From: Sporomusaceae bacterium
GTDB taxonomy: Bacteria; Bacillota; Negativicutes; UBA1444
Reading direction: 5' to 3'
Length of the DNA: 64,000 nucleotides
Assembly (NCBI GenBank): GCA_018434355.1
Contig: JAHDPL010000019.1
Span: forward strand, 124,001 to 188,000
The position numbers were made by a program, and so were the translations under genes. The notes beneath the pieces are model-generated. The model was not told the origin of the DNA. It saw only the letters and a program-made list of their open reading frames with translations, and did not search any database. Positions 5,621 through 12,533 of the stretch are shown piece after piece; within the stretch, counting starts at the first letter, position 1, and the number at the start of each line of letters is the position of its first letter.

Positions 5621-5784
5621 TAGGGCTCATTATCCTTCCTGTACAGGCAGCATCGAGAAAAATACTGCTCCATCAATCATTGCATCAATCAAATCATTTT
5701 ACTCATATGAAGACTAAATTCCGTTATTTGGTTTTTCAATCGAACATTCTCTATTTTCAAAGCGGCATTCTGCTGACTGCTATC

Positions 5785-5813
5785 ATTATACTTTTCTTTC
5801 GCGTTATTATAAA
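5785..5813 (-). promoter_or_regulatory. Candidate sigma-A promoter for dnaE
   Basis: On the minus strand TATAAT (5785-5790) is preceded by a 17-base spacer and the weak -35 hexamer TTTATA (5808-5813). It lies about 165 bases upstream of dnaE. The -10 is perfect and the -35 matches at four of six positions. Confidence 0.4.
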
Positions 5814-5847
5814 GAGCATTGCTCTACGCTGCCATCTTACCAAAGAA

Positions 5848-5868
5848 AAAGGACACTTACGCGTCCTC
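5848..5868 (-). terminator. Weak candidate terminator after the WYL operon
   Basis: AGGAC and GTCCT form a 5-bp stem around an 8-base loop, followed on the minus strand by TTTTTCTTT. The stem is short, so this is tentative. It would end the WYL regulator/small ORF transcript before dnaE. Confidence 0.35.
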
Positions 5869-5917
5869 AAAAAACGGAAATACATTGTCTTCATAACAAC
5901 AAAAAATCGCTCTATGA

Positions 5918-6067
5918 TTTGTAAAATGCCAAGCTAAATTCCAAGACGGATCGGAGATCCCGCAAGTCAAGAAAAATGGCCCGAGTGTAGTGACAGAAAC
6001 CCCTGTAACCGTCTGGCTGAACAAGCTGAAATCCGCCTATTATCTGCAATTCTTAATGGAAATCTAA
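5918..6067 (+). pseudogene. Candidate gene remnant with no start codon
   Basis: An open plus-strand frame of 49 codons between stops at 5915 and 6065. It encodes a protein-like sequence, including EIPQVKKNGPSVVTETPVT and then WLNKLKSAYYLQFLMEI, but has no ATG, GTG or TTG with a ribosome site at its head. It looks like the C-terminal end of a lost gene; I do not recognise the family. It converges on the minus-strand small ORF at 6064-6238. The surrounding 5621-6063 stretch otherwise holds only the dnaE promoter and a weak terminator. Confidence 0.3.
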
Positions 6068-6238
6068 CATTTCTTATAGTAGTCGTTCATAAGCTTTATA
6101 ATTCTGCCCGCTTCTTCGAGCATCTTATTTAAATCCTGCCAATCATCTTCTTTCCTTCCCCAAATCGTCCGCCATCTGCCGGACAAACGTCTCTGGCGGA
6201 ATACCGTTGTTATTGCGTTCAGCAATAATGACGCTCAT
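6064..6238 (-). pseudogene. Small ORF coupled to the WYL gene, apparently frameshifted
   Basis: An ATG at 6238 overlaps the WYL gene's stop as ATGA, which suggests translational coupling. The first frame runs 31 codons (MSVIIAERNNNGIPPETF..., ending GKERR) to a TGA at 6143-6145. The next frame continues at the same point with KEDDWQDLNKMLEEAG and YYKKC to a TAG at 6064-6066. The join lies in the purine run GGGGAAGGAAAGAAGATGA. The span is 175 bases, one more than a multiple of three, so a single-base shift would give a protein of about 57 aa. The product is unknown. It could be a decayed gene, a programmed frameshift or a sequencing slip. Confidence 0.45.
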
Positions 6239-7311
6239 GCCGAGTACAGCCCAATTATGCTCTGAGCATTTTTGGCCACTTCCTTACGTAGCCACTCTGG
6301 TTCAATCACTTCAACCGTCGAACCCCAAGTCATCAACCAGGGCACCATCTCGCCTGCATTGGCGACTCGAAATATGATATCTGCCGATCCATCCTCATGT
6401 TGAACAATTTTTTGACTGTCATGAAAAACTGTCACAGCAAATTTCCTTGTCATACCGGGTTCTGCTCTTAAGCGGACTTCTTCTGGTGGGTCTGCATTTT
6501 TTACCGTCCAAGTCCCCCAATTCGATCCATAGGCATCTTTAAGAGAAAAATCGGCAGGTATCCGGTAATTACTGTTTTCAACAATACTCATTCTGTCAAT
6601 TAGGTCAACTCTGAAAATTCGCCGGGCCTCGGCCTCATGGCAAAAACCAACCAGATACCAGGTGCCGTTCCGGCAAAGCAATCCATATGGCTCGACTTCG
6701 CGTCCCTTGGTTATTTCGCCATCGTAAGCCCTTGTATAATCGATCCGAACCATTTTTCCACGACGAATCGCCCGCAAAATCTGCGTAACGGCATTATTAT
6801 TTTGTTTCAACTTTTCTTGACTATAGCCCGACACATAGACATACTTTTCGACATCATCCCGTAGACAGTAGCATTCTTTCACTGTCTCGAGAGCATGATC
6901 AAACACCAGTTTCATTATCTTCTGAAACTGCTCCGCCACCATATGTCGCTGCTGCGGATAGAGACTCAGCGCCAGGAGGATGGCCTGAGAGGGATCCATT
7001 TGCTGTCCCGGTACCAGTTCACGCGTAAACAAATACCGCCTGTTTTCTTTCTTGCCAACCGCTTTAATAGCCGGTTCAACAACTTCACCGGCCGCTTCCT
7101 CCAGCTCCTTCATCCTTGAGCCGGGATCAAAAAATTCGTTCAACCGGCGTACCATGCGTTGAATGCTTTTTTCACTTGGGAAACTGTCCTTCTGCCGCCC
7201 ATACGCATCGATCAAATCTTGCTTATTCGCGCCACCACCTGGCGTTTTTTCAACAATTCTCAGCAATACACTTAGCATTGCCTCCGGATGCCGCTCACCA
7301 TTCTGAAACAC
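6235..7311 (-). CDS. WYL-domain transcriptional regulator
   Basis: A 358-aa regulator with an N-terminal helix-turn-helix region (about residues 10-70) and a C-terminal WYL ligand-sensing domain, visible as EVEPYGLLCRNGTWYLVGFC followed by RIFRVDLIDRM, and a WCX-like tail after about residue 270. WYL proteins usually bind DNA and respond to nucleotides or nucleic acid and are common near defence and stress genes. The start is GTG at 7311, preceded by GGAGGGG. The ATGA overlap with the small ORF downstream suggests a two-gene unit. The target is unknown. Confidence 0.88.
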   Translation of the reverse strand: MFQNGERHPEAMLSVLLRIVEKTPGGGANKQDLIDAYGRQKDSFPSEKSIQRMVRRLNEFFDPGSRMKELEEAAGEVVEPAIKAVGKKENRRYLFTRELVPGQQMDPSQAILLALSLYPQQRHMVAEQFQKIMKLVFDHALETVKECYCLRDDVEKYVYVSGYSQEKLKQNNNAVTQILRAIRRGKMVRIDYTRAYDGEITKGREVEPYGLLCRNGTWYLVGFCHEAEARRIFRVDLIDRMSIVENSNYRIPADFSLKDAYGSNWGTWTVKNADPPEEVRLRAEPGMTRKFAVTVFHDSQKIVQHEDGSADIIFRVANAGEMVPWLMTWGSTVEVIEPEWLRKEVAKNAQSIIGLYSA

Positions 7312-7435
7312 GCGATCCCCTCCAAACGCTTCTATAAATCATCCGTATTTTTGACACCGAGACCTATCGACGCAATTATTCTGTTTCTTTAATTATGCAC
7401 CCTTTTCCTTCCCAAAAAACAAATAATGTTCCTGC

Positions 7436-8668
7436 CTACCTTCTTTGCCTCGCTAGACGCTGCGACAGTCTCAGTTTGGGTTGTCTCGGAAACCCTCCAC
7501 CCTGGGTCTCGTCAATTATTCTCTTTCGCCGCGCCGACTCAACAGCAACGCTGAATAATAGCCCCATCGCCCATAGGTTTACAATCAGCGCCGAACCACC
7601 ATAACTGAAAAAGGGCATGGGCACACCGGTTACAGGCAGCAAGCCCAAAACCATAGCGATATTGCCAACCGCCTGCCCTATGATTAAGAACAGCACTCCG
7701 ATAGAAAGCACTCGTCCTCTGCCATCCGCAGATTGCAGTGCAATACGCATACCGTAGTAAGTCATGGAGCCGAGCAGGAACAAAACGGCCAGCGATCCGA
7801 CAAAACCGGTTTCTTGCGCCCAGACCGCAAACGCAAAATCAGTGTGTGCCTCAGGCAAATAGTAAAACTTACTCGATCCCATGCCCAAGCCAGTGCCTTT
7901 AAAACCACCTGATCCGACGGCAAACAAGGATTGCATTGGCTGATAACCGCTTGTTTGCGAATATTGTTCAGGATTAATCCAGGCCCAGATTCGTTCGGTG
8001 CGGTAAGCATATTGGTTTATCAACAACCCTGTGCTGACAATTCCAGACCCGCACAAAATCAGCCACTCCAGTTTGGGTATTCCAGCCACTAGGTAAGGAA
8101 ACAGACACATCGCAAATACAATCATGCCTGTCCCCATATCCGGCTGTACCGCCACTAATCCAAATAACGCAGTTGTAATCAACAATGGATACGAAACCAA
8201 CGTGATCGGTTTTTTATCGATACGTGGTCCAAGGTAAGATACAGCCAATAAAACCGCCGTCAATTTTGCCAGTTCTGACGGTTGAAAACTGATGAATCTT
8301 CCGACAGTAAGCCATCGCCGCGCCCCATTGATCTCAATCCCGAAAAACGGAACAGCAATCAACAATCCAAGCGTTATCAGCGTCCACACCGGAAGATATT
8401 GACAAATCCAACGATATCCTAGTTTGATCACAATAGCCATACCAATAAATCCGATAACCGCAGCCGCAGAATGGCGTTTTAAAAAATACAAACTGTCGCC
8501 AAAGAATTGAGAGCCGAAAACAAAGCTAGCACTAAAAACGTTGATGGCGCCGGTAAGAAACAATAAGATGGTCACAAACCCCAGTCCTTCCAGCGGACTG
8601 GCCCAAATCCTTGGCCAAAAAGTGTTTGATTCATGCCTTAGTTGCTTCACCTCTGTATTCACCACCAA
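7436..8668 (-). CDS. ftsW: FtsW/RodA/SpoVE-family peptidoglycan glycosyltransferase
   Basis: A 410-aa multi-pass membrane protein of the SEDS family, which polymerises lipid II glycan chains with a partner transpeptidase. Family marks are GARRWLTVGRFISFQPSELAKL, VAVQPDMGTGMIVFAM, the extracellular stretch AYRTERIWAWINPEQYSQTSGYQ, and GLLPVTGVPMPFFSYGGSAL near the end. About ten membrane helices are visible. FtsW is the best label; SpoVE or RodA cannot be excluded. The start is uncertain: TTG at 8668 is listed, and GTG codons lie within the next seven codons. Base composition is AT-rich compared with the genes after 12.5 kb. Confidence 0.85.
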   Translation of the reverse strand: MVVNTEVKQLRHESNTFWPRIWASPLEGLGFVTILLFLTGAINVFSASFVFGSQFFGDSLYFLKRHSAAAVIGFIGMAIVIKLGYRWICQYLPVWTLITLGLLIAVPFFGIEINGARRWLTVGRFISFQPSELAKLTAVLLAVSYLGPRIDKKPITLVSYPLLITTALFGLVAVQPDMGTGMIVFAMCLFPYLVAGIPKLEWLILCGSGIVSTGLLINQYAYRTERIWAWINPEQYSQTSGYQPMQSLFAVGSGGFKGTGLGMGSSKFYYLPEAHTDFAFAVWAQETGFVGSLAVLFLLGSMTYYGMRIALQSADGRGRVLSIGVLFLIIGQAVGNIAMVLGLLPVTGVPMPFFSYGGSALIVNLWAMGLLFSVAVESARRKRIIDETQGGGFPRQPKLRLSQRLARQRR

Positions 8669-8742
8669 AACCCGTTTTTATTGCCCCACTCACCTTAGCC
8701 ATTGATTCATCAATTTGTTACCTACCAGCAGTATATAAAAAC

Positions 8743-8766
8743 AACTGGACACATAAGCGTCCAGTT
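8743..8766 (-). terminator. Intrinsic terminator after the UDG-like gene
   Basis: AACTGGAC and GTCCAGTT form a perfect 8-bp stem around an 8-base loop, followed on the minus strand by GTTTTTAT. It closes the UDG-like/HEXXH/HEAT cassette just before ftsW. Confidence 0.75.
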
Positions 8767-8861
8767 AACAAGAATGTTACTATTTTATCGACAATGATTC
8801 TGAAACTAAATCCAGCGATATGGGGATATGTAATTTTGAACCCTTACTTTATTGCACATCA

Positions 8862-9425
8862 TCAATTCTCGCATGACATACGCCCCTTTGCCTGAATTAA
8901 AGCCTTGATGAACTTGGGAGTCCATTCCTGATAACGGAATCCTGTCGAAGGATGTTTGATCATACAAAACTCCGGCCCTTCCGGCAGTGGTTGGGAAAGG
9001 CGACTCCACAACGAAAATCCTAATACCAATACAACAGCCGGATTTAACTCCTTTATCACACTTAAGAACGGTTTTTGAGCTGCCAACCACATTTCTTCTG
9101 TTGGTCGAATGCGAGACGTTCCTCCGACAAAGGATTGAATATAGTTGTAAAATGCGACATGCTCCCATACTTCGGCTCGCTCAGTATCACTTAACCAAGT
9201 GGCCGATTCCTTTTTCAACAATACCGCTGCAGTCTTGGTGAAGAATGGGTGTCGCTCGCTTTGAGCCAATTTTTTGACTACGCCGATTGTAAACTCTGGA
9301 TTAACCGGTCCGTCGTGATAGTGTGATTCTCCAAGAACTAGAACACGTAGCCCGAATTGATTGTCTTGGTAATACTTACTACCAACCCAAGGTTTAAATA
9401 CAACCTCTTCCATTACTTGATTCAC
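8862..9425 (-). CDS. Uracil-DNA glycosylase superfamily-like protein
   Basis: A 187-aa protein with the layout of the uracil-DNA glycosylase fold. VLVLGESHYHDG (about residues 28-39) sits where the water-activating loop lies in UDGs, FYNYIQ lies mid-protein, and KHPSTGF (about 159) corresponds to the HPS-type DNA-intercalation loop. Classical catalytic motifs are not exact, so activity on uracil is not claimed. The listed start is GTG, with an ATG four codons in that also follows AGGGAG. It is last of three same-strand genes of unknown role, followed by a terminator. The family call is moderate and function is unknown. Confidence 0.5.
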   Translation of the reverse strand: MNQVMEEVVFKPWVGSKYYQDNQFGLRVLVLGESHYHDGPVNPEFTIGVVKKLAQSERHPFFTKTAAVLLKKESATWLSDTERAEVWEHVAFYNYIQSFVGGTSRIRPTEEMWLAAQKPFLSVIKELNPAVVLVLGFSLWSRLSQPLPEGPEFCMIKHPSTGFRYQEWTPKFIKALIQAKGRMSCEN

Positions 9426-9483
9426 TCCCTATGTTTTTCTAGATTGACGTTCCCACTCCCTATTTCAATCACCTCAGTTCCGA

Positions 9484-10215
9484 CTATACGCTGACCCCCT
9501 CAATAACTGCCTGACCTTTCGTTGCTTCAAGGATCTTTATCAAAACATTGCTCATGTTAATCCCATTGCACTCCAAATACCTGCTGGATACCGGCCCTGT
9601 ATAGCGAATCAGCTCCATTTCAAAATCAGCTCTAGATTTATAGTTCACCCAATCACGATAACCGGGCGCTCTATATTCAAACAGTTTCGGCAACAAAGCC
9701 CGGTAAATTCCCGAAGACAACCGGGCTTCTTTTGAGGACCACTGCCACCGAAGTTCCTCAAGTTGAAAAAAACTCCAGCTAACGGCCAGCGCCTCTTCTG
9801 TCAGGCGATCGTATCTTAATCCGAACAGATGCCGGGCGACGTCGCAAAAATGGTGAAACTGCTCATGCGTGTAAGTCTTCATCACTACCATATGACACAT
9901 GTTCTGCAAATCATTCGGTTCCACATAGTATCCTCCCCGAAAAATGTTGCGTGCATGATGCCAGAAAAACGAGGTTAATTGTTCGCGGTGCAAAACTATT
10001 CGACCCGGACTAGCCATCGGTTCATAATGGCCTAGCACATCTGTTCCTTCCTCCATAACTGCGGGCGGCGTAAGCCCCATATTATCGAGTTCCTCGTCAA
10101 ACCAATCAGGCCAGACCAACCCTGGGAGTTCGCTTTCCGTAGTAAGTGAAAAACGCTTCAGGATGTCCTTCACGCAAACGTCAACAATACTCAAAGTAAG
10201 ATCCCCCGCTTCCAT
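9484..10215 (-). CDS. Unknown protein with a HEXXH zinc-protease-like motif
   Basis: A 243-aa soluble protein I do not recognise. Residues about 118-122 read THEQFHHF, which contains HEQFH, the HEXXH zinc-binding signature of zincin peptidases. A glutamate in LTEEALAVSW about 20-25 residues later could be the third ligand, as in gluzincins. No signal peptide or membrane helix is seen. It starts 9 bases after the end of the 725-aa HEAT-type gene and is 58 bases upstream of the UDG-like gene, all on one strand. The ribosome site is weak, so coupling to the gene before it is likely. Enzyme activity is only inferred from the motif. Confidence 0.55.
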   Translation of the reverse strand: MEAGDLTLSIVDVCVKDILKRFSLTTESELPGLVWPDWFDEELDNMGLTPPAVMEEGTDVLGHYEPMASPGRIVLHREQLTSFFWHHARNIFRGGYYVEPNDLQNMCHMVVMKTYTHEQFHHFCDVARHLFGLRYDRLTEEALAVSWSFFQLEELRWQWSSKEARLSSGIYRALLPKLFEYRAPGYRDWVNYKSRADFEMELIRYTGPVSSRYLECNGINMSNVLIKILEATKGQAVIEGVSV

Positions 10216-10224
10216 CTTATTATT

Positions 10225-12402
10225 TTATGAGTCTTCTGCCGCTGCATGCCGTTTTCCTTCTACTCCCATTTCATTGGAGATGCAATCCATAACTTTTTCT
10301 ACGATCCAGTCAGTCATCCACTCTTCTGCCCGATAAACAGGTCCGATGGAACAAGGTAGAGCTCCCCAAGCCTCTTCTTCTTCGGGCAAAAAACCATCAA
10401 TTAAAATTAGTGGCACCTCCTCTTTCGTCAATTCTTCGCGTTCGGTTTGCTCCAAACACAAATTTTCTAGCTCCTCTTCGTTAAATGGACGAGTAAGTTC
10501 TTGCAGGAAATGGATATATGTATTCCAACCTTCCATCCCCAAATCACGACGATTCACTACCCGGACTGCGGCCGGAAAAACAAACAGATCCGGCGTTTGC
10601 GGTTCTGGGAATATCAACTGGAAGTCAACTTTTTGGGCAAGTCGGTTCATTTCAATAGCGAGCTGAAGATTAGACGATACCAATGCCAGTGCCGGCTTTT
10701 CCATCGGAACATACTTGTGCCCCCCCTCGCGTTGCCAGCAACGCAATATTGACACTTCAGCCGTTTCGCGTACCATTTGTGAATCTGGTTCTTCCCGTAC
10801 CAATTTCTTCAGTATGGGGACTGAAGAAATATTTCCGGCATGGTACAAAGCCGTAGCAAGAGAAAGACGAACTGCGCCAGAGCAATCAAACAGCAGGACA
10901 TGAATTTTGTCCAGCACGGTTTCCGGGAATGGGGACAACCTTGTTGCCGCAATGTTCCGGATATAGTCTGCGGCGCCAATACGGACAAGTCTGTTTCCTT
11001 CTGCCATTGGATGCTCTGGGTACAATTGTTCAAACTTTCGATCGCCCAAGGAAAATGAAAGCTGAGCGTAATTTTCAAGTTGCCCGGTTGCCATCTGGAC
11101 ATGGTACTCTTCCAATGCTACTGATGAAGCTGCAAGAGTTTCCAATGCCGTGTTAAGTGTTAACGAGACAGTTTCAGATTTTTCGTTATCCATGATTCTC
11201 CTCCAATCCAGCGGATATTGCCGACGATAGTAATCAATACGAAGCTGAATCTCGCAAATTCCCCGCAGATATTGAGGGGCAAACAGACGACGGAGACTGT
11301 CTATCCAACGGAAATCCTTCTCTGATAACTCGTGGCTCAGAAGGTTTCGTCTATCTATTCCGCCGCAATTCATTGCATGAAAGGTTTTTTCTGGCGGAAA
11401 ACGATAACTGATCTTTGACTGAAGTGAGTGTGCCATAAAAAACGAAAAGGGATCACCGTTGTATTGCCCAGACCTACTTGTCAAATTCGCTAGAGCTAAA
11501 TCTTCGATGTACTGCTGCACGCCCGAAAATTTCAGCAACTCATCCATAGCTGATTTATCTGCAATGCTAGGCAAATCAGGCATATTCACCTCTTTCCACA
11601 ACAAATATAAGATAAACAAATGATTCTTTCGTTCAGCATCACTGATTAAGCAATGGGATAGAAAACTTTCTTGAATCTCTTCTTGGGTAAGGGCTTGGTC
11701 TCTTCTACGTGTGCAGGTGTCATGTTCCAGTTTTTCCAGCTGAGCTAGACCATCGTAGCGGAAAACGCTGCACACAGTTTTTTCGAGTATCGTTTCCATT
11801 CGTCCTTCACTTGCTCCCGCTTCAGTAGCTTGAGGCCAAAAGCAGTTCCAACGAATAGGCACGTAACGATCCGGAGTTTCAATTTGACTCGGCTGCCGCA
11901 ACGCAAATGCCAGAAGCATCTTTTCCCCCATCGAGGATACAACAAGTGTAATGCTTTCATCCTTGTCAAAAGTATCAAAAATATTATCAGATTCCTCAAT
12001 CGCCTGACGAATTCCTAATACCCACCCCACAACTGGAGTGTTAGGAATCTCACACCACCAGGCCATTTGATTTTCCAACAAAAATTTCGCCCACGCCGCT
12101 AACAATATATACAAATTAGCTAACTTCTGATCGGCGATCCATTGCATTTCCTTTTTTGCTTTTTCACGCATTTTTTCCATGCCAGGCACAGAACCCTTTT
12201 CAGCCAGCTTTTTTACAATCTGCCCTTCCAGATACTTCTGCGCTTCACTTAGATCCATTGGTCCCGTCAAAAATAAAACAGCCACTGTCCTCCACAACCT
12301 TTCTGCGTCAAATTGAACTGTCGCCAATTCAATATAGCAAGTGTGCAGGACACATGGCTGTCCGCTAATTAATGATCGATGTAAATAACTCAGCAATTGC
12401 AA
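10225..12402 (-). CDS. Large unknown protein with HEAT-like helical repeats
   Basis: A 725-aa, Trp- and Leu-rich, mainly helical protein. Around residues 470-560 the helices GNRLVRIGAADYIRNIAA, SGAVRLSLATALYHAGN and VPILKKLVREE resemble HEAT/PBS-lyase repeats. No catalytic motif is seen. The only start at the head of the frame is TTG at 12402 without a ribosome site. The frame is closed just upstream by TAA at 12424-12426, beyond which the same frame carries an ATG-led 24-codon piece at 12427-12498. The full protein may therefore be interrupted. It leads a three-gene same-strand cassette with the HEXXH and UDG-like genes. Function unknown. Confidence 0.55.
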   Translation of the reverse strand: MQLLSYLHRSLISGQPCVLHTCYIELATVQFDAERLWRTVAVLFLTGPMDLSEAQKYLEGQIVKKLAEKGSVPGMEKMREKAKKEMQWIADQKLANLYILLAAWAKFLLENQMAWWCEIPNTPVVGWVLGIRQAIEESDNIFDTFDKDESITLVVSSMGEKMLLAFALRQPSQIETPDRYVPIRWNCFWPQATEAGASEGRMETILEKTVCSVFRYDGLAQLEKLEHDTCTRRRDQALTQEEIQESFLSHCLISDAERKNHLFILYLLWKEVNMPDLPSIADKSAMDELLKFSGVQQYIEDLALANLTSRSGQYNGDPFSFFMAHSLQSKISYRFPPEKTFHAMNCGGIDRRNLLSHELSEKDFRWIDSLRRLFAPQYLRGICEIQLRIDYYRRQYPLDWRRIMDNEKSETVSLTLNTALETLAASSVALEEYHVQMATGQLENYAQLSFSLGDRKFEQLYPEHPMAEGNRLVRIGAADYIRNIAATRLSPFPETVLDKIHVLLFDCSGAVRLSLATALYHAGNISSVPILKKLVREEPDSQMVRETAEVSILRCWQREGGHKYVPMEKPALALVSSNLQLAIEMNRLAQKVDFQLIFPEPQTPDLFVFPAAVRVVNRRDLGMEGWNTYIHFLQELTRPFNEEELENLCLEQTEREELTKEEVPLILIDGFLPEEEEAWGALPCSIGPVYRAEEWMTDWIVEKVMDCISNEMGVEGKRHAAAEDS

Positions 12403-12423
12403 GAATACAAGAAGGGGGGTGAT

Positions 12424-12498
12424 TTAATCGCTCCAGCGAATTTCCTCAATGACTTTACTTAATAGTTCCCATTTTTTGATCGCATAAGATATTTCCAT
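12424..12498 (-). pseudogene. Detached 5' piece of the HEAT-type gene, ending in TAA
   Basis: ATG at 12498 opens 24 codons (MEISYAIKKWELLSKV..., ending RWSD) and then TAA, in exactly the same frame as the 725-aa gene. Past the stop the frame reads ITPLLVFLQLLSYLHR and on without a break. The simplest reading is one gene cut by a nonsense codon, or by a slip near the CCCCCC run at 12415. Readthrough or a genuine short leader peptide are alternatives. Confidence 0.45.
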
Positions 12499-12533
12499 AG
12501 CCTTCTACTGCAGCAACTGTAAGATGAACAAAC

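Follow-up and report, generated by a model that had tools for sequence, protein, structure and literature searches.

The locus and its gene boundaries

The window analysed here is a 64,000-nucleotide stretch of the genome of a Sporomusaceae bacterium (GenBank assembly GCA_018434355.1, contig JAHDPL010000019.1, positions 124,001 to 188,000). Its subject is a set of three adjacent genes, encoding a 725-aa protein, a HExxH-containing protein hereafter called HEX, and a 187-aa protein resembling uracil-DNA glycosylases (UDGs). Because DNA-attacking enzymes from known or predicted defence systems nearly always adjoin the relatives of HEX in distant bacteria, the window probably holds an undescribed anti-virus cassette. 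The features of the trio are as follows.

10225-12402, minus strand: open reading frame (ORF) of an orphan protein of 725 aa, perhaps helical; residues 470-550 HEAT-like; N-terminus uncertain
9484-10194, minus strand: HEX, a protein of a zincin-like metallopeptidase family, recognised by alignment and motif conservation; TTG start
8862-9425, minus strand: UDG-superfamily protein, 187-aa ORF, probably starting at ATG 9413
8742-8767, minus strand: terminator-like hairpin at the 3' end of the trio, 11-bp stem and T tail, containing GGACGCTTATGTGTCC, a motif with two genomic copies of which this is one

An earlier note, made from the sequence alone, had described three same-strand ORFs with short gaps, closed by a terminator. 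These were all present (8862-9425, 9484-10215 and 10225-12402, followed by the hairpin), and the ORFs are read as one operon with the terminator at its end. For HEX, the ORF from ATG 10215 encodes 243 aa. A GGGGGA sequence is located 7 nt 5' of TTG 10194, straight after the stop codon of the 725-aa gene, and the product from this TTG (MSIVDV...) fits the family N-terminus SIxD (MSIADA..., MTVADI...). Based on both features, the start is likely TTG 10194, giving a protein of 236 aa.

The end of the stretch, placed at 12498 in the earlier note, had to be moved. An ATG is found at that position, but an in-frame TAA (...EEIRWSD*ITPLL...) lies between it and the 725-aa ORF. The ORF opens at TTG 12402, which has no clear ribosome site; given this start and the TAA upstream of it, the N-terminus is doubtful, and the protein may be truncated at its 5' end or may start further inside. 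With the boundaries corrected, the earlier observation was essentially right, and its defence reading is now better supported than sequence alone could show.

HEX belongs to a probable zincin family

HEX gave no match in Pfam, NCBIfam or PADLOC, nor by sequence in PDB. Two of its conserved sites were assigned from the family alignment.

9853-9867, minus strand: HEQFH zinc-binding motif, residues 117-121 counted from ATG 10215; H117, E118 and H121 present in 13 of 14 aligned members
9793-9798, minus strand: EE of EEALA, candidate third zinc ligand, residues 140-141; invariant in the alignment

The first distant homologue was found on a Thiodictyon plasmid. From this homologue and three others with a lost HExxH, the DNA pattern (F/L)(H/Y)xxCD-x14-EEA-h-A was built and scanned against about 85,000 species genomes, producing 17 loci, of which 13 were true HEX homologues and four (L025, L031, L032 and L038; loci and genomes are denoted by our L and G numbers) were chance matches. 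The family motif is HExFH…CD…EEALA. For most homologues, the EE columns had belonged to the search pattern. H117 and E118 had not, and HExFH was kept in all aligned scan homologues although the pattern demanded neither residue, which lends independent support to the zinc site. The nearest homologue was in a SAR324 metagenome-assembled genome (43-44%). In viral contigs, scans with single proteins were empty, and those with alignment A1 and the pattern HExxH...EEALA gave chance matches only.

The distribution of the family is patchy. Neither HEX nor the 725-aa protein had a homologue in 150 relatives, and HEX was not found in 379 other genomes of the host's class. In a sample of the phylum, homologues were present in three of 398 genomes besides the host, in another family of the phylum, and HExxH was lost in all of them; a match in G508 proved to be an unrelated enzyme. 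The three, at L007-L009 (G578, G554 and G528), are solitary homologues of about 375 aa in which HExxH is replaced (R/F/Y) while CD and EEA remain, and they form an inactivated branch.

The AlphaFold model of HEX (pLDDT 79.9, pTM 0.80) had no Foldseek match at E <= 0.001. By VIA-align, the best two rows were dipeptidyl peptidase III (DPP III) zinc peptidases, 5zum (Z 6.5) and 5yfd (Z 4.5), with the next row at 3.7. HEX resembles this M49 family (HEXXH variant of Caldithrix, PMC5805324) in its HExxH pentapeptide and perhaps as a helical zincin, but M49 enzymes are of about 550 aa compared to 236-243 aa for HEX, and the Z scores are only those given. Taken with the family alignment, HEX is probably a zincin-type metallopeptidase (gluzincin: HExxH plus a downstream Glu), in line with the putative metallopeptidase of the earlier note, and its family appears to be one named by no library tested. 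No link to the HEX family was found for an RptR-regulated defence island carrying an M48 peptidase, which was also considered.

Genes beside HEX in other genomes

Neighbours were counted at the 13 loci outside the window that had an apparently active HEX and readable flanks; the flanks were read and the neighbouring proteins scanned. At 11 of the 13, the direct neighbour of HEX was GmrSD, PDDEXK_4, Nmad3, TmtA or an MBL nuclease-like protein. GmrSD adjoined HEX at five loci (L034/L045, L037, L039/L049 with a broken GmrSD, L044 and L087) and PDDEXK_4 of the PDC-S26 kind at three (L028/L048, L027/L047 and L089). Nmad3 was the neighbour at L036, TmtA (Tiamat) at L003 and the MBL nuclease-like protein at L042. 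GmrSD-type genes are rare in any genome, and for this reason the five adjacencies are, in our judgement, far beyond chance. At L041, where HEX had no direct partner, two GmrSD-like genes lay within a few kb, as did a divergent WYL gene. WYL genes were close to HEX both there and at L046, and an IetA-like dual AAA+ ATPase was near HEX at seven loci (L003, L030/L043, L027/L047, L037, L042, L049 and L089).

Within one supported clade (100/99) of close HEX homologues, the partner varied between TmtA, GmrSD, PDDEXK_4 and Nmad3. HEX is the constant member and the DNA enzyme is swapped, even between close homologues. One Thiodictyon genome (G1060; L087, L088 and L083) carried three copies of HEX, one beside GmrSD (L087), one beside TmtA and an AAA+ ATPase on a plasmid and one as a remnant. 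Near HEX at four loci, a small VPGGW-containing family was seen (L046:8136-8546, L042:11227-11676, L047:8640-9209 and L049:6654-7172), the tested members of which had no Pfam match.

Recurrence of the trio in unrelated genomes, a check proposed in the earlier note, was not found by sequence homology. The exact trio of the window was seen at no other locus; the 187-aa family occurred alone, HEX occurred with many partners and the 725-aa protein was without a homologue. The sole similar-looking case was in Geobacteraceae (L033/L046), where a tentative UDG-like protein, HEX and a HEAT-repeat protein (HEAT_2, 1.2e-30) stand together. These are the same three kinds of protein as in the window, though the outer two have undetectable or weak homology to the window's and so two of the three members are not demonstrably homologous. 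The 243-aa protein of L033 aligned with the UDG family in a profile comparison over 62 columns only (probability 23%, E 0.00088) and had no Pfam or PDB match; it is tentatively regarded as a UDG relative.

The 187-aa protein has a predicted UDG-superfamily fold

The earlier assignment of the 187-aa protein to the UDG superfamily was borne out by its predicted structure. The AlphaFold model (pLDDT 78, pTM 0.81) matched UdgX by Foldseek (E 1.6e-4), the best 46 matches all being UDG-superfamily chains. By VIA-align, the 50 matches listed were likewise all of this superfamily, and the family-4 UDGs 1vk2 and 4zby gave Z 10.2 (3.2-3.6 Å over 145-149 residues). Pfam UDG (PF03167) was matched by seven of ten family members (E <= 0.1, best 9.3e-5), with no other Pfam family matched; the window's own protein gave no Pfam UDG match. 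On the model, the protein has the three-layer fold of the superfamily. Two of the conserved sites are:

9318-9332, minus strand: GESHY, motif-A position; G32, S34, H35 and Y36 invariant, E33 in 9 of 10 members
8946-8954, minus strand: HPS, motif-B position; H158 and P159 invariant in 10 members

The conserved order in the family is GESHY, AFYN and HP(S), which we take to be motif A, the stacking segment and motif B in the order expected of the superfamily. The Fe-S cysteine set of UDG families 4/5 and UdgX was missing: the window protein has C154 and C185 only, so the four-Cys ligand set of a 4Fe-4S cluster is incomplete. It therefore shares the overall fold with family 4 and UdgX (VIA Z 9.4-10.2) but lacks these ligands, and identity in the structural alignments was 11-17%.

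A functional parallel may be Brig1, an anti-phage glycosylase for which an S. tokodaii UDG (4ZBY) is reported as the closest fold (Dali Z 9.2; PMC11078745). Brig1 and Brig3 (PMC11078745, PMC13160076) are horizontally carried and of UDG-superfamily fold, and 4ZBY is among the closest folds for both Brig1 and the window protein. The comparison is by published fold and not by sequence, and for this reason the cassette is not assigned to the Brig systems; the window protein differs in its motifs (GESHY, AFYN and HPS) and in its partner, a zincin in place of the ADP-ribosyl-glycohydrolase-like protein that accompanies Brig. Fold and mobility together make a Brig-like role plausible.

As to mobility, tblastn identified relatives on 110 plasmid records (best 42-50% identity) and on six contigs of the viral collection; the plasmids range from IncN and IncF to small ColE1-like ones. 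The family stands as an unannotated hypothetical protein at L006:7977-8519 and on about 80 further plasmids, many of them conjugative enterobacterial plasmids including IncN. A distant homologue (about 31%) at L055 lies about 2 kb from apparent phage preQ0/7-deazaguanine biosynthesis genes, judged as such by eye from the translations (L055:945-3778 and 5959-6606), and is possibly linked to 7-deazaguanine DNA modification.

The 725-aa protein

The 725-aa protein had been described as HEAT-type. A single Pfam HEAT_2 match was obtained at residues 470-550, below threshold (E 0.0073, 17 bits against a cut-off of 27.7), so that a HEAT-like stretch is possible, while several repeats above the Pfam threshold were not found. 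The PDB search returned only a designed HEAT-like repeat (E 0.32), and the protein had no match in plasmids, PHROGs or the ORFs of the loci compared. PHROGs gave nothing useful for any protein of the trio, and PADLOC-DB 2.0.0 gave 0 families for each.

The trio lies in an acquired block

The following feature surrounds the trio.

5700-12530: AT-rich variable block between dnaE and sepF; GC 0.452; missing from a same-genus relative

The earlier note had suspected transfer of an AT-rich stretch confined to the trio; the low GC and the transfer held, with a larger extent of about 5.7-12.53 kb. GC in this block was 0.452 compared to the window mean of 0.549, and that of the trio genes was 0.445-0.475. 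The GC content at third codon positions (GC3) of the block's five main genes was 0.42-0.51 compared to 0.665 +/- 0.061 for the remaining genes of the window. In G001, the single same-genus genome compared, the order was MurB-MBL-SepF, then one unrelated gene, then DnaE, and none of the five block genes sought there (WYL, FtsW-like, UDG, HEX and 725-aa) was matched. The absence from this genome, the GC3 shift, the absence of HEX from the 379 genomes of the class and the placing of its nearest homologue in SAR324 all indicate that the block is foreign and was, by this comparison, horizontally acquired. A 16-bp hairpin motif, GGACGCNTANGTGTCC, has exactly two copies in the 3.9-Mb genome, at 5851-5866 and 8747-8762 (minus), both inside the block; the two may be marks of insertion junctions, a trace of stepwise insertion.

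Proposed function and alternatives

That the trio is a horizontally acquired cassette directed against phages (or plasmids) is put at an even chance. The defence function is inferred from the company kept by one member, HEX, and not from recurrence of the trio. In the proposed mechanism, the UDG-like enzyme would act as the module that attacks DNA: it would cut a non-canonical base out of the invader's DNA and leave abasic sites, as Brig1 does. HEX would be the common proteolytic partner of whichever DNA enzyme is present (GmrSD, PD-(D/E)XK, Tiamat or a glycosylase), its cleavage either activating or releasing that enzyme or, after infection has been sensed, destroying a target protein. The role of scaffold or sensor would fall to the 725-aa protein, replacing the AAA+ ATPase or HEAT-repeat protein of other HEX loci. 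A broader proposal, held more tentatively and with the balance somewhat against it, is that a modular class of anti-invader systems has gone unrecognised, in which HEX is the protease common to all members, the DNA-attacking modules are interchangeable (GmrSD, PD-(D/E)XK, Tiamat, MBL nuclease or glycosylase) and an AAA+ ATPase is often present; the window would carry the glycosylase version. If so, several type IV-like and modified-DNA-targeting defence genes would have in common a partner protease whose family is missing from Pfam, NCBIfam and PADLOC. This would account for a companion gene that keeps recurring and would help in the search for new systems; the short list of candidate anti-phage glycosylases would also gain a second UDG-fold family, one borne on plasmids.

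HEX homologues adjoin genes of GmrSD type IV restriction, Tiamat, PDC-S26 and IetA-type AAA+ islands, but the window block contains none of these: its scanned proteins gave no TmtA or GmrSD match, and the DNA-directed partner here is UDG-like. Several points weigh against a defence cassette. A scan of four block genes turned up no defence gene listed in PADLOC, with WYL matches only. The fold match of HEX (Z 6.5) is under the usually trusted level, making the DPP III likeness suggestive only, and a predicted UDG fold is no proof of glycosylase activity, the classical catalytic motif being altered to GESHY. In every plasmid or phage-like flank read, relatives of the 187-aa protein were without HEX; with the UDG family elsewhere found only in this state, the two proteins may not cooperate. 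The weakest links are the 725-aa protein, an apparent orphan with no detectable homologue and maybe truncated, and the pairing itself, HEX and the UDG family of the window having been seen together in no other genome.

The last two points also give real weight to a different explanation, in which the three genes were acquired independently at one recombination spot and have no joint function, the UDG-like gene being plasmid or phage cargo and HEX having strayed from an island of the GmrSD or AAA type. The solitary UDG relatives on plasmids and phage-like contigs and the uniqueness of the trio would then be expected, the two GGACGCNTANGTGTCC copies may mark junctions of separate pieces and the 725-aa ORF may be 5'-truncated. 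This is nevertheless considered less likely: the genes share one strand and short gaps, the HEX ribosome site directly follows the 725-aa stop, a single terminator stands behind the third gene and a similar-looking trio exists in Geobacteraceae.

A cassette of cooperating genes could also be a toxin-antitoxin or abortive-infection unit, with HEX as a toxic protease restrained by the 725-aa protein and triggered by UDG-made DNA damage. An effector role suits a protease whose neighbours are AAA+ ATPases and varying enzymes that sense or cut DNA, but a toxin-only role leaves the solitary, active-site-deficient homologues at L007-L009 unexplained, and this version is improbable. The earlier note had offered defence and DNA damage response side by side; the first was strengthened by the company of HEX, while the second, in which the UDG-like protein would produce abasic sites and HEX, as a DNA-protein-crosslink protease (SprT/Spartan-like), would clear proteins from damaged DNA, fits the predicted UDG fold and the pairing of a glycosylase with a HExxH protease in principle but is quite improbable given that HEX partners elsewhere are GmrSD, PD-(D/E)XK, Nmad3 and TmtA rather than repair enzymes and that the patchy distribution of HEX and its foreign composition are unlike a repair pathway.

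Other genes of the block

Two further genes of the block lie downstream of the trio.

7436-8668, minus strand: FtsW-like paralogue, Pfam FTSW_RODA_SPOVE; GC3 0.496
6235-7311, minus strand: WYL/WCX regulator, Pfam WYL 9.4e-20 and WCX 2e-14

The earlier note had given sepF and ftsW as the genes on either side of the trio. The host genome has three FtsW/RodA-type paralogues; the FtsW-like gene, one of these, is 68% identical to the copy on C24, and the WYL regulator shares its foreign composition. Since both lie inside the foreign block, the trio is not a cassette set between two core division genes. As cargo of such a block, a division-type glycosyltransferase, here an FtsW paralogue of foreign base composition, is unusual.

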